In this document: piece by piece, positions 1,936 to 9,993 of the stretch
Layout of the letters: each line of letters begins with the position of its first letter
How positions within the stretch are numbered: the first letter of the stretch is position 1
IMG/VR virus record: IMGVR_UViG_3300009425_000122
Span: 1-21,123 of that record
Reading direction: 5' to 3' (one strand)
DNA: 21,123 nucleotides
Origin: a virus
Translations under genes and position numbers: made by a program
The notes under the pieces: model-generated
What the model was told of the DNA's origin: nothing
Databases searched by the model: none
The model's input: the letters and a program-made list of their open reading frames with translations, nothing else

Positions 1936-1948
1936 ATTAGAAATTATG
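1936..1948 (+). promoter_or_regulatory. Start-codon leader, TTAGAAAT type
   Basis: ATTAGAAATTATG ends on the ATG of the 460-residue protein gene, the third exact copy in this early region. Leader and spacing fix the start at 1946. Confidence 0.5.
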
Positions 1949-3328
1949 GCAAAATTATCACATTCACAAAGATGTAAGTACGAAGAAAATGGAGGTATTG
2001 GTGTATCTATGATTGACGAAAGAAGAACTTTTTTCGATTATAGAATATTAACACCTGCAATAAAGAAAGAATATTTAGAGATATTAGAGTTTGCATTCTC
2101 AGATACAGCTAGAAAAATGGGTTGGATGGAAGAGAAAGTATCTAGTCATCAACACTTTAAATATTGCGAAAAAAGAATTAGAATAATTAATAGATTTCAT
2201 GGTCATAGAATGATGTCTAGTAGAACAACTTCTAATCAAAGTATATTATCAATGGACTATGGTGAGTTAACAACTTTCAGAAACACTGAGACCGTAGACA
2301 ATCATGATACTTACGAAAAGTTAAGAAAACTAACTCATGAGTATATTGAAACTAAATTAGGTTTTGAACGTAAAGATGATGGTTATTATAATCCTTCTTA
2401 CAATCATTCTTATAGATTAAATAAAACAATTAAAAGCGAAGAGTTAAACCATACCTTAGCAAGTATTATTATTAGTACTGTGCCAAAATACGTTTTTCCA
2501 GGAAAACCTCATAGTCTTATGTTATCTGAAACAGATGGTATGATTCAGTACGAGCATCATGGTAGGATTATCGAAATGAGAATAGGCAAAGGTATTAAAA
2601 AGTTTTTTAAGTTACACAGCGTGATTCTAAGTGATGAGTCTATTAAGAATGCATCTAATAGGCTTAATTTAAAAGTATCTGACTTTGTGTTAAAAGTTGT
2701 AGAGGGAAAAGATATAGATAAATACTATAATGGTGACCAATACGACAATAGCTTTAATACAGGTTCATTAGGTTCTTCTTGTATGAGAGGTGATGATGCA
2801 ACAGACGGTAATTTCTTTGAAGTGTATAAAGACCACGCTAAAATGATTATACTTGTCAATGAAGAAAGCGATTTGATTATAGGTCGTGCTATTTTATGGC
2901 ATACAGCTAAATATGCAGGTGATGAGGTTCTAGACGACGAAGGTCTTCATCCTGGAGATATAGTATATATTATGGATAGGATTTATTCTGACGAATCAGT
3001 TTATTCTATATTTAAAGATTGGGCTAGAGATAATGGTTATTACAGAAAAAGATATCAATCTTATAATAATGAAATATTATGGAAATCACCTATGACAAAA
3101 GAGGAGATTGAGTTACATTTTGAAATGGATATAAACCTTAATCAATATGACTATGTGCCTTATATGGATACTTTTGCATGGGGAGATAATGACCAAGTTA
3201 GAAACGAAGAAGGATTTGGTTTTTATGCTGCTAGAAGTACCGAGGGTATATTAGAGGGTGGTGATAACGAGGAAAGATATCATGAAGATGATTATGACGA
3301 AGATGAAGATGATGATTGTGGATGGTAA
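1946..3328 (+). CDS. Large phage protein of unknown function with SSCMRG and MDRIYS motifs
   Basis: A 460-residue soluble protein. The N-terminal 230 residues are basic and mixed alpha/beta. The most distinctive part is residues 273-350: GSLGSSCMRG (Cys279), FFEVYKDHAKMIIL, then IIGRAILW (311-318) and YIMDRIYSDESVY (341-353). I associate this order of motifs with uncharacterised proteins of many large phages, recalled and not searched. The conserved-looking cysteine could be catalytic or structural. The last 20 residues are almost entirely acidic (HEDDYDEDEDDDCGW), which suggests DNA mimicry or binding to a basic partner. It is followed 17 bases later by the M20-type peptidase gene, so the two are probably co-expressed. 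I cannot assign an activity. Confidence 0.65.
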   Translation: MAKLSHSQRCKYEENGGIGVSMIDERRTFFDYRILTPAIKKEYLEILEFAFSDTARKMGWMEEKVSSHQHFKYCEKRIRIINRFHGHRMMSSRTTSNQSILSMDYGELTTFRNTETVDNHDTYEKLRKLTHEYIETKLGFERKDDGYYNPSYNHSYRLNKTIKSEELNHTLASIIISTVPKYVFPGKPHSLMLSETDGMIQYEHHGRIIEMRIGKGIKKFFKLHSVILSDESIKNASNRLNLKVSDFVLKVVEGKDIDKYYNGDQYDNSFNTGSLGSSCMRGDDATDGNFFEVYKDHAKMIILVNEESDLIIGRAILWHTAKYAGDEVLDDEGLHPGDIVYIMDRIYSDESVYSIFKDWARDNGYYRKRYQSYNNEILWKSPMTKEEIELHFEMDINLNQYDYVPYMDTFAWGDNDQVRNEEGFGFYAARSTEGILEGGDNEERYHEDDYDEDEDDDCGW

Positions 3329-3345
3329 ACTATAAAATATAAATT

Positions 3346-4371
3346 ATGAAAGAATATACACAAAATGTTCCTAATCTAGAGATTAGCGAAAAAGAACGTA
3401 ATAGTTCTATTGAATTAATGAGTGCTATTTTCAATGTACAAAGTACATCTGGAGATATGAAAGCAATGAGGTCTTTTATATATCATTTTATCGCTAACTT
3501 AGTTGATGATAGAATACATATAGAAAGTGACGATAGTGGTAATATATATGTAACTAAAGGTAGAGCAGATACTTATCCTTGTATAGTTTCTCATATAGAT
3601 ACTGTTCATGATATTATACCTGATGAAGATTACCTTGTATTAAACAATGGTTTAGAATTCTTCGCTATTGACTTAGCTTTAAAAAGACCAACAGGTATTG
3701 GTGGAGATGATAACAATGGTATATATTGCTGTCTTGATAATTTAGTTAGAGAAGATAATATAAAAGTAGCATTCTTTGTAGATGAAGAAATTGGTTGTGT
3801 AGGCTCAAGTGCTTGTGACATGGAATTCTTTAAAGATGTTTCCTTTGTACTACAAGCTGACAGACAAGGCTATAATGATGTAGTTAATAACATATCAGGC
3901 ACCAAGATGTTTGGTAGTGATTTTCTTGAAGTTATTTCAGATGACCTAGATAATTACTCTAGACTAGTTACTAGTGGTGGTATGACAGATGTTATGCAAT
4001 TAGCACACAATGGCTTAGAGGTAGCTATGGCTAACTTTAGTTGTGGTTATTACAAGCCTCATTCAGATAACGAATATGTTATTATTGATGAGTTGATACT
4101 TACATCACTATTGTTTAGAGATATAATTAAATCAGCATATTCAGATGGTCTTGTAAACGAATACTTTAGAGAGCCTTATACTGATTATTTTTTCAATGCT
4201 GGAGATTATAAGATAAGTGATTGGTATTCACCTTCTGAAACGGTAAAAACTGATAAACCAATGCAAACAAAATCAGATTGTAGTTATTGTGGTGGTGAGT
4301 TAGAATACGATAGTACTACCGATGCTTACTATTGCTTCGGATGCTTAGATTACGATTATATGAATTCTTAA
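3346..4371 (+). CDS. Compact M20-type zinc peptidase with C-terminal zinc ribbon
   Basis: This 341-residue protein carries the metal-binding set of the M20 (peptidase T / carboxypeptidase G2) clan in order: His83 and Asp85 in SHIDTVHD, the bridging Asp121/122 in GIGGDDNNG, the catalytic and metal-binding Glu147-Glu148 in FFVDEEIG, Asp172 in LQADRQG, and His239 in YKPHSDNEYV. Co-catalytic zinc hydrolysis of a peptide or amide bond is therefore expected. Only 67 residues separate Asp172 from His239. Typical M20 enzymes carry a dimerisation (lid) domain of about 110 residues there, and it is missing here. The C-terminus adds a four-cysteine zinc ribbon (Cys312, 315, 330, 333), which may recruit a nucleic acid or protein partner. 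The substrate is unknown. The gene follows the 460-residue unknown protein by 17 bases. Confidence 0.75.
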   Translation: MKEYTQNVPNLEISEKERNSSIELMSAIFNVQSTSGDMKAMRSFIYHFIANLVDDRIHIESDDSGNIYVTKGRADTYPCIVSHIDTVHDIIPDEDYLVLNNGLEFFAIDLALKRPTGIGGDDNNGIYCCLDNLVREDNIKVAFFVDEEIGCVGSSACDMEFFKDVSFVLQADRQGYNDVVNNISGTKMFGSDFLEVISDDLDNYSRLVTSGGMTDVMQLAHNGLEVAMANFSCGYYKPHSDNEYVIIDELILTSLLFRDIIKSAYSDGLVNEYFREPYTDYFFNAGDYKISDWYSPSETVKTDKPMQTKSDCSYCGGELEYDSTTDAYYCFGCLDYDYMNS

Positions 4372-4983: not shown

Positions 4984-5583
4984 ATGGAATTAAATTTTGA
5001 TTACCCTGTTGTATTTGAAACATCAGAAGAAACAACAAACATTATTGGTGCTTTATTAATCTTTAACAAAGAAATGGGAGTGGTTGGTAAAACATCTAAG
5101 AACCCTTTCTTTAAGAGTAATTATGCAGACCTACCAACTATCTTAAAAGCTATTAAAGAGCCTTTAGAGAAAGCTGGATTAACCGTAACGCACTTTCCTG
5201 TAGGTGACAATAGATTAATTACTAGACTAAGTCATTCTAGTGGTGAATTTTATCAGTCAATGAACTATATGAAAGCTGTTAAAGACGACCCACAAGCACG
5301 TGGCTCAGTTATTACTTACATGATGAGATATGCTGTAGGTGCTGTATTAGGATTATCAATAGATAAAGATGATGACGCTAATAGTTCTACTAGACCGTCT
5401 GCACCTGTATTAAAAGTGATGACACCTGCTATTAAAGACGCTATGTTAAAGTATGTAGAAGATGGTACATTTGATTCAGTACAGAAGCAATTACCAAAGT
5501 ATTCACCAAACGCTAATAAGACTCTTGTAGTTAAGGCATTATCAGATGCTATAGCGGTTAAAACACTAGAAGCAAATGAATAG
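4984..5583 (+). CDS. erf: ERF-family single-strand annealing recombinase
   Basis: A 199-residue protein of ERF type, which anneals complementary single strands during phage recombination and genome circularisation or repair. The family core is visible in order: NPFFKSNYADLPTILKAIKE (40-59), LEKAGL (61-66), LITRLSHSSGEF (78-89) and GSVITYMMRYAVGAVLGL (107-124), followed by the acidic DKDDDAN. The length is typical for the family. The C-terminal 65 residues are less conserved and probably contact partners such as SSB. It opens the block behind the TAnnTTTG promoter and overlaps the next gene by 8 bases. A PD-(D/E)XK exonuclease at 12167-12916 could supply its single-stranded ends. Confidence 0.88.
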   Translation: MELNFDYPVVFETSEETTNIIGALLIFNKEMGVVGKTSKNPFFKSNYADLPTILKAIKEPLEKAGLTVTHFPVGDNRLITRLSHSSGEFYQSMNYMKAVKDDPQARGSVITYMMRYAVGAVLGLSIDKDDDANSSTRPSAPVLKVMTPAIKDAMLKYVEDGTFDSVQKQLPKYSPNANKTLVVKALSDAIAVKTLEANE

Positions 5584-6010
5584 TTACGACAAATGGAGAC
5601 AGCTTGAAGATGACATTAATGACATCCATGATAGAAGAGATAGAGCAATAGCTACTAATGGTAATAATGGTATTAATTACGAATATACATTTGTACCTGA
5701 ATTTAAAAATAGTGACTTACCTGATATAGCTAGTGAGAGAAAAGCAACACCTGTATTTACAGGAGTTCTAGCTTACTTTCCAGATGCTATTAATGATGTA
5801 GCTAAATGCAGTTACGTAGGACAGCAACAACATAATCCTAATGAGCCATTGGCTTGGGATAGAAGTAAGTCAGGCGATGAATTAGATGCACTTGCTAGAC
5901 ATTTATTAGATGCAGGTACATTTGATACAGATGGAATTAGGCACTCAGCTAAAGTAGCGTGGAGAGCATTAGCTAACCTTCAAAAAGAAATAGAACGAGA
6001 TGGCAAATAG
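5576..6010 (+). CDS. dATP/dGTP diphosphohydrolase-type protein
   Basis: This 144-residue protein matches, from memory, the phage domain annotated as the dATP/dGTP diphosphohydrolase N-terminal domain (formerly DUF5664): RKATPVFTGVLAYFPDAIND (55-74), CSYVGQQQHNPNEPLAWDRS (78-97), DELDALARHLLDAGTFDTDG (101-120) and RHSAKVAWRALANL (122-135). Related enzymes hydrolyse purine deoxynucleotides to monophosphate and pyrophosphate, which adjusts nucleotide pools. In 2-aminoadenine phages such an activity supports base replacement. No PurZ homologue is in this window, so base replacement is only a possibility. The conserved acidic and histidine residues appear intact, and no second catalytic domain is attached. 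It overlaps the ERF gene by 8 bases and the next gene by 11. Confidence 0.75.
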   Translation: MNSYDKWRQLEDDINDIHDRRDRAIATNGNNGINYEYTFVPEFKNSDLPDIASERKATPVFTGVLAYFPDAINDVAKCSYVGQQQHNPNEPLAWDRSKSGDELDALARHLLDAGTFDTDGIRHSAKVAWRALANLQKEIERDGK

Positions 6011-9549: not shown

Positions 9550-9993
9550 ATGGATTGGTTTAAAGATGGCGAAGAGGTTTTAGCACCTCAAGGTAATGCT
9601 ATTGGATTTGTATATGTTATAGAATTCAATAACGGTGATAAATACTTAGGTAAGAAAAACCTCTACTCTAGAAGAAAAAGAAATTTCGGAAAGAAAGAGG
9701 CGGCACTTGTCACTGATAAAAGAAAGAAGCTTTATGAAATGGTTGTAAAAGAAAGTAATTGGAGAACTTACGAATCATCTAATGGAGATGTTAAACAACG
9801 AATAAAGAACGGAGAATGTCATACTAAAACAATTTTAGATTGGTCTTATACACCTAAACAATTAACTTATTTAGAGATTAAATATATGTTTAATTTAGAT
9901 GTATTAAATCCTAAAGGTAATTGGCTTAATGACAATGTATTAGGTAAGTTCTTTAAAAAAGAGTTAGAGAAATGGGAGCAGATAAAAAGATAG
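9550..9993 (+). CDS. GIY-YIG-type nuclease
   Basis: A 147-residue protein with the GIY-YIG core: GFVYVIEF (19-26) and KYLGKKNL (31-38) stand for the two signature strands, Arg41/Arg42 for the conserved arginine, and Glu109 in LTYLEIKYMF for the catalytic glutamate. The C-terminal VLNPKGNWLNDNVLGKFF also fits the family found in many phages. It is expected to cut DNA with a divalent metal. It could be a recombination or host-DNA-degrading nuclease, or a free-standing homing endonuclease. It starts 2 bases after the helicase gene and overlaps the next gene by 22 bases, which encodes a DNA-binding-type zinc protein. The two may act together. Confidence 0.7.
   Translation: MDWFKDGEEVLAPQGNAIGFVYVIEFNNGDKYLGKKNLYSRRKRNFGKKEAALVTDKRKKLYEMVVKESNWRTYESSNGDVKQRIKNGECHTKTILDWSYTPKQLTYLEIKYMFNLDVLNPKGNWLNDNVLGKFFKKELEKWEQIKR

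Follow-up and report, generated by a model that had tools for sequence, protein, structure and literature searches.

What does a phage do with a metallopeptidase that has a complete active site and no lid, and might another gene work with it? The locus that raises this question lies in the IMG/VR virus record IMGVR_UViG_3300009425_000122, of which positions 1 to 21,123 (the window) were analyzed. All window coordinates below refer to its plus strand. The gene (3346..4371) has an ATG start and codes for 341 amino acids; profile, model, and alignment evidence identify it as a lidless clan-MH (M20/PepT-like) metallopeptidase. The earlier note on this DNA, based on the letters and the open reading frames (ORFs), had read it as an M20-type peptidase fused to a zinc ribbon.

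The first metal ligand and its supporting Asp form an H83-x-D85 motif (3592..3600), which carries no substitution in alignments of 10 and 52 rows. In a wider alignment of 179 rows, H83 is present in 170 and D85 in 169, with 9 gaps each. The bridging Asp lies in a GGDD motif (G119-G-D121-D122; D121/D122 at 3706..3711) that aligns with the GADD of the PepT-like structure 3gb0. E147-E148 (3784..3789), which we take by analogy with the M20 family to be the general base and a metal ligand, are retained in 171/179 rows (8 gaps). The metal ligand D172 opens a family signature, D-R-x-G (3859..3870), with R173 in 166/179 rows and G175 in 153/179. The last ligand sits in Y236-K-P-H239-S-D-N-E243 (4051..4074), which follows G234-Y235; here H239 is kept in 173 and E243 in 172 of the 179 rows. 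Taken together, H83, D85, D121, D122, E147, E148, D172, and H239 are each unchanged in 169 to 173 of the 179 rows, a set that includes the window protein and in which the remaining rows are nearly all gaps, partly from split or truncated ORFs. The clan-MH ligand order HxD...D...EE...D/E...H is therefore invariant in the two smaller alignments and present in nearly all rows of the largest, which bears out the claim that all metal-binding residues of the M20 clan are in place.

Sequence profiles place the protein in a phage family more readily than in a classical peptidase family. Its catalytic domain (residues 21 to 253) matches PHROG 4191, "peptidase," at an E value of 6e-53, so the identification of a peptidase is far beyond chance. 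PHROGs 34186 and 21791 belong to the same family, whose members are also lidless, and the "peptidase" of Cellulophaga phage phi38:1 shares ∼40% identity over 93% of the window protein. The window gene thus belongs, as an unexceptional member, to a widespread family of phage peptidases. The annotations examined for PHROG 4191, phi38:1, and Cellulophaga phage Calle_1 say only "peptidase" and mention neither the lost lid nor the partner gene described below. A methylated "Peptidase" of phi38:1 is given as gp021 in the excerpted part of PMC13288928, a numbering of uncertain relation to the lidless peptidase gene. Pfam assignment to M20, M28, or M42 was dropped, as the window protein reached none of the three cutoffs (17 bits against a gathering score of 24.6 for M20 and 13 bits against 21.3 for M28), and the protein was assigned to its family by the spacing of its ligands and by its fold. 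One relative, from a Thermus phage, exceeds the Pfam M28 cutoff with 26.2 bits. The top NCBIfam matches were PepT-like (E value of 3.7e-8, far under the curated cutoff of that model), and weak matches included ArgE/DapE-type deacylases.

An AlphaFold2 model of the window peptidase (mean pLDDT of 87.9; input alignment of 52 sequences) has a PepT-type catalytic-domain fold, aligning with 3gb0 at a Z score of 27.8 and 2.3 Å over 239 residues. Other M20 catalytic domains also align, as do the M42 TET aminopeptidases (9qr6 and 1y0r) at Z scores of 23 to 24.5. Foldseek additionally matched the M28 aminopeptidase of Streptomyces griseus (1cp7/1qq9), lower in the ranking. The comparison with peptidase T, M28, and M42 enzymes that the earlier note had proposed therefore favors a PepT-like protein. 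The model gave no indication that the ligands fail to come together, the observation by which that reading was to stand or fall, although this judgment was made at the level of the fold: the match argues for the right ligand geometry by homology rather than by measured distances.

Each of the three enzyme groups differs from the window peptidase in some features. PepT and PepT-like tripeptidases (M20B; 3gb0, 3rza, and 1fno) share its catalytic fold and the order and kind of its ligands, whereas the phage protein lacks ∼112 lid/dimerization residues, has the D-R-x-G signature, and belongs to a family of which a part carries a ribbon. M28 aminopeptidases consist, like the phage protein, of a single catalytic domain without a lid, but the last motif of the window peptidase is M20-like (PHSDNE). 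M42 enzymes have a similar fold and give weak profile matches; in these enzymes, a large insert separates the first His from the bridging Asp. That insert is absent from the window peptidase, in which H83 and D121 are only 38 residues apart (30 to 52 across the set).

The missing lid is apparent from spacing. Between D172 and H239 there are 67 residues, while the counterpart interval in 3gb0, D167 to H346 as read from the alignments, spans 179; the difference of ∼112 residues is the size of a lid. In the 172 sequences with both residues aligned (the window protein included), the spacing was 58 to 71 with a median of 66, and none of the 172 contained a lid. Lidlessness is therefore a trait of the sampled phage family and not of this phage alone, which extends the original observation of a short interval. 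These results support the view of the window peptidase as an M20/clan-MH catalytic domain that has kept every ligand but has no lid.

Loss of the lid can abolish activity: in the excerpted account of DapE, the lid-deleted enzyme was completely inactive, while the lidless aminopeptidase AAP was naturally monomeric (PMC4012986). The phage family must therefore replace the job of the lid in its own way. Candidates for this replacement would be the D172-R173-x-G175 signature and the tyrosines beside H239; in particular, Tyr235/Tyr236 or Arg173 of the catalytic domain may stand in for the lid His, as lidless M28 aminopeptidases must manage. A monomeric state, as the earlier note had suggested, is plausible. 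The inactivity of lid-deleted DapE could also be taken to mean that the phage proteins are binding proteins that merely keep a metal site. We regard this as extremely unlikely, as Glu147 and Glu148 occur in every row with a residue at those positions and the other ligands in nearly all, unlike in typical pseudo-enzymes. Rather, a natural PepT-like catalytic domain that lacks the lid needed by DapE yet retains a full set of metal and general-base residues makes this family a natural test of lid-free clan-MH catalysis. To our knowledge, no activity has been reported for any member.

At the C terminus, the four-cysteine ribbon seen by the earlier note is present (CxxC-x14-CxxC; C312, C315, C330, and C333; 4279..4344), as judged from the sequence and the 52-row alignment, in which C315, C330, and C333 hardly vary. 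In the model, this region consists of short strands (318 to 322, 327 to 330, and 335 to 337) of moderate confidence (block means of 85, 76, and 73). Across the wider set, CxxC-x(8-45)-CxxC occurs in 81/179 rows; the ribbon is absent from most loci in Bacteroidota genomes and from the Autographiviridae examples (L005, L009, L174, L175, and L176). In one peptidase paralogue of the 636-kb phage LR756504 (L185:1503-3602), a DnaJ-type Cys-rich CxxCxGxG stretch, scoring under the Pfam cutoff, follows the catalytic domain. With a ribbon in part of the family and a DnaJ-type stretch elsewhere, the C-terminal additions are swapped. Such swapping is compatible with a targeting role, without showing it, and the ribbon as a targeting finger is plausible.

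The earlier note had considered a metallopeptidase in a phage early region uncommon. This view did not hold: tblastn retrieved relatives from 392 phage records, among them 230 from Klebsiella phages, 51 from Pectobacterium, 42 from Vibrio, 10 from Escherichia, and 4 from Shigella. In Drulisvirus, Kotilavirus, Maculvirus, and Stompvirus examples, the genes for primase and helicase follow a short way after the peptidase gene. Of the six conserved early ORFs of PhiM1-like phages, the only one with an assigned function is a peptidase (IPR007484), as stated in the excerpted part of the Pectobacterium phage CB5 paper (PMC6115819). Hundreds of phage records, mostly of Klebsiella phages, thus carry this gene labeled "peptidase" or hypothetical.

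Five IMG/VR members of the family have an in-frame TGA at residue 108 (L023:6316-6318, L024:4991-4993, L060:6355-6357, L063:2103-2105, and L078:1253-1255). These genes are 74 to 89% identical in DNA over their aligned parts and contain one TGA each; all other Trp codons are TGG, and the frame is otherwise intact. The corresponding column of the 52-row alignment holds Tyr (21), Trp (21), Phe (8), Ala, or His. The TGA could represent conserved read-through, a split enzyme with a restart, or recoding.

A conserved partner directly upstream, which had been overlooked in the earlier note, is with the lost lid the part of this locus most worth following. The partner gene (1946..3328; 460 amino acids) ends 17 bp before the peptidase gene and codes for a protein with a GNAT-like predicted core and an acidic C-terminal tail, named SCM here for its Ser-Cys-Met motif. 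Of 173 loci searched with an iterated profile, 124 have an SCM relative no more than 300 bp from the peptidase, and 2 more have one within 800 bp. Among the 124, SCM lies upstream of the peptidase in 107 and downstream of it in 13, and the ORF calls overlap in 4; the link therefore survives rearrangement. Gaps between the two genes are at most 30 bp in 97/126 cases, and the ORFs overlap in 46/126, taking the longest start for each. When proteins of at least 90 amino acids within 3 kb of the peptidase were clustered, SCM was a neighbor in 121 loci (a single BLAST cluster accounts for 117), compared with 38 for the next family.

Most of the 173 loci come from two sets, namely, the best 80 of 457 confirmed relatives in IMG/VR and the best 80 of 88 in GTDB; hand-picked phages were added to these. 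The window itself (L011) and three loci from the same phages as others (L012, L014, and L015, matching L001, L004, and L003) were removed before counting; two doubles were left (L002/L087, the same contig, and L010/L035, the same peptidase match of 388 amino acids with equal E value). As close relatives share neighborhoods, the counts are of loci and not of independent events. Seven loci have an SCM match beyond 800 bp. Six of these have it 3.8 to 4.8 kb downstream. The HMM match of Enterococcus phage H1 lies ∼2.5 kb upstream, with two more SCM-type ORFs directly adjoining the peptidase. A further 27 loci extend at least 2 kb to either side of the peptidase and gave no SCM match, and 13 with shorter flanks gave none either. 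Two of the 27 (L009 and L175) do have a divergent neighbor, indicating that the profile misses some true partners, and several more have less than 4.7 kb downstream, compared with the 3.8 to 4.8 kb at which distant SCM genes occur.

Approached from the SCM side, the association is again visible. Records with the Drulisvirus SCM numbered 231 for Klebsiella, 42 for Vibrio, 10 for Escherichia, 4 for Shigella, and 15 for Pectobacterium; compared as totals per host genus rather than record by record, SCM and peptidase agree for Klebsiella (231/230), Vibrio (42/42), Escherichia (10/10), and Shigella (4/4) and disagree for Pectobacterium (15 against 51). Two records found through SCM were examined. 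In Thermus phage TSP4, an SCM-type ORF stands on either side of the peptidase, at ∼10 and ∼310 bp, and in Pseudomonas phage C171, the peptidase match is divided between a pair of overlapping ORFs, with the first ORF beginning where the SCM gene ends. SCM also adjoins the peptidase in Cellulophaga phages phi38:1 and Calle_1. Tight linkage between peptidase and SCM across very different phages is thus shown.

The link is not symmetric, as SCM often occurs without an adjacent peptidase. A search with the DNA pattern for YPYMDTF (80 loci from 92 matching stretches) placed 75 of 83 matches inside SCM ORFs. The peptidase was adjacent to 14 of these 75, at least 4 of them on contigs already in the peptidase set, and farther off in 5; 19 had none within complete flanks, and for 37 the flanks were too short to decide. 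On 19 large SCM-bearing contigs, SCM was confirmed in all 19 and a peptidase match was found in 15, with an SCM start within 3 kb of 12 of the 33 peptidase places. Conversely, three phages (Jenst of Brevibacillus and BcoS-136 and FADO of Bacillus) gave no SCM match across their whole genomes, and Lactococcus phage LW33 gave a marginal one (E value of 0.001). The profile was also silent in Dickeya phage BF25/12, in which a divergent neighbor is present; the absences in Jenst, BcoS-136, and FADO are therefore not firm.

A plainer account of the peptidase would be peptide scavenging, in which the enzyme, a cytoplasmic aminopeptidase or tripeptidase, supplies phage protein synthesis with amino acids released from host peptides and SCM is merely cotranscribed. 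The closest fold is indeed that of PepT, a tripeptidase, and the top NCBIfam matches are PepT-like, if under the curated cutoffs. However, the pair is kept in very different phages and hosts, with SCM on either side of the peptidase and other neighbors changing, and the retention of one partner while others change is not predicted by a housekeeping role. We consider scavenging unlikely, though still to be reckoned with.

Both genes are multiplied in the huge phage LR756504, where SCM places outnumber peptidase places by 14 to 8. This excess, the close spacing of the two genes, and the long variable tails of SCM proteins would fit a maturation enzyme with SCM itself, or its acidic tail, as its main substrate. 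Clan-MH enzymes of PepT-like fold are mostly exopeptidases acting on short substrates, and many SCM paralogues have no peptidase nearby; such a maturation role is in our view very unlikely.

In a further stretch (L198; 7,054 bases), four SCM genes coding for 321 to 444 amino acids stand in tandem within 7 kb, and no peptidase match occurs in that stretch. In an apparent peptidase-SCM fusion (L169:2519-4255), an SCM N terminus that stops short of the SCM motif is followed by the latter half of a peptidase; this ORF looks like the product of an in-frame deletion and was excluded as evidence of fusion.

SCM itself keeps four residues almost without exception. Among 131 SCM proteins, counting only rows with a residue at the position, Cys279 of S-C-M (2780..2782) is found in 125/125, Arg314 (2885..2887) in 127/128, Tyr347 (2984..2986) in 127/128, and Asp408 of PYMDTF (3167..3169) in 129/129. 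The AlphaFold model is confident in the core only (residues 250 to 440, mostly >90). Nearly all of the 50 PDB rows listed by Foldseek for SCM are GNAT acetyltransferases or acetylating toxins by title or other proteins with a GNAT fold (best E value of 5.9e-3, probability of 0.99). VIA-align gave Z scores of up to 6.4, in a range (<8) that can reflect merely a common arrangement, and the SCM profile had no match among PDB sequences at E values up to 5. The acyl-CoA motif R/QxxGxG/A of the beta4-alpha3 junction occurs in 0/131 SCM proteins in the region aligned with residues 335 to 375. Thus, SCM probably has a GNAT-like fold, as far as the model indicates, and is unlikely to bind acetyl-CoA in the usual way. 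Two of the 60 database rows listed label the gene "putative structural protein."

The partners in Autographiviridae are very divergent, although the motif residues C, R, Y, and D are visible. Their HHalign match to the main family (E value of 8.6e-10) runs over the PYMDTF region and the C-terminal part. By itself, the core scored 23.1, barely above the best of 20 column shuffles (18.95), with a probability of 6.6%; we therefore grade their homology to other SCM proteins, judged by sequence, as probable. The Enterococcus SCM-type proteins are related more weakly still (E value of 4e-6; core probability of 1.1%).

Several other identities were considered for SCM. An amidoligase/GATase, a lead suggested by phage amidoligase gene clusters, was set aside because no such family appeared among the few weak Pfam matches of seven SCM-type neighbors or among the 25 families shown for A5. 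A PcfJ-like protein, our first guess, was likewise missing from the Pfam families shown. A defense-system label for peptidase or SCM was dropped after PADLOC returned no match for either at an E value of 0.1. Finally, Rac of LUZ19/phiKMV is a phage GNAT that takes over and reprograms host RNA polymerase. In the excerpts of PMC7552054, it requires its acetyl-CoA pocket and no other phage factor, it is coded after the phage RNA polymerase gene, and no protease is predicted among Phikmvvirus genes. With such a pocket and no phage protease, Rac of phiKMV was, on the basis of its published description, set aside as a homologue of SCM; it offers a functional parallel only. SCM shares the predicted fold of GNAT acetyltransferases but lacks R/QxxGxG/A and has an invariant Cys.

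A GNAT-like neighbor invites a writer/eraser scheme, in which an ArgE- or aminoacylase-style deacylase removes an acyl group that SCM adds to amino acids, peptides, or acylated aminoacyl-tRNA. Deacylases of the ArgE/DapE type are found among M20 enzymes, and such models are among the weak NCBIfam matches. Nothing here separates deacylase from peptidase specificity, however, and SCM is without a CoA-binding motif. In addition, the excerpted work on DapE indicates that this deacylase requires its lid for activity (PMC4012986). A dedicated deacylase is, on balance, quite unlikely.

We favor a broader reading, whose chances we see as evenly poised: an active lidless clan-MH exopeptidase or deacylase is functionally coupled to a divergent GNAT-fold SCM as a conserved two-gene module. 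The two proteins would act on the same target early in infection, a shared substrate that is conjecture at this point. SCM may transfer an acyl or aminoacyl group from an unusual donor onto a host or phage protein, a peptide, or a tRNA-linked amino acid, and the peptidase may then trim, expose, or reverse the added group. C-terminal additions such as the ribbon would probably direct the peptidase to its target or partner. A bolder version, tentative and fairly unlikely, casts SCM as a CoA-independent GNAT-fold transferase that uses a catalytic cysteine to mark a target and the peptidase as a lid-free PepT-like hydrolase that edits the mark. This would be an undescribed host-takeover module common to podoviruses, Bacteroidota prophage-like elements, marine phages, and megaphages, with both parts multiplied in the last. 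In the open-licence literature, a weak basis for a negative, we found no description of the peptidase-SCM pair or of family-wide lid loss, and the excerpted parts of PMC7824862, PMC6115819, and PMC13288928 do not describe the pair. If the pair does modify a host target, conserved and unexplained early genes of these phages would gain a function; in any case, the evidence adds a concrete, testable partner for the phage "peptidase."

Two further genes of the window merit mention. The gene at 9550 to 9993 codes for a SegE-type GIY-YIG endonuclease (Pfam E value of 2.5e-19) and also matches PHROG 447, "NAD synthetase" (E value of 5e-19), a label that looks wrong. Directly 3' of an ERF recombinase gene, the gene at 5576 to 6010 codes for 144 amino acids that match only the model of the dATP/dGTP diphosphohydrolase N-terminal region (PF18909; E value of 6e-8).
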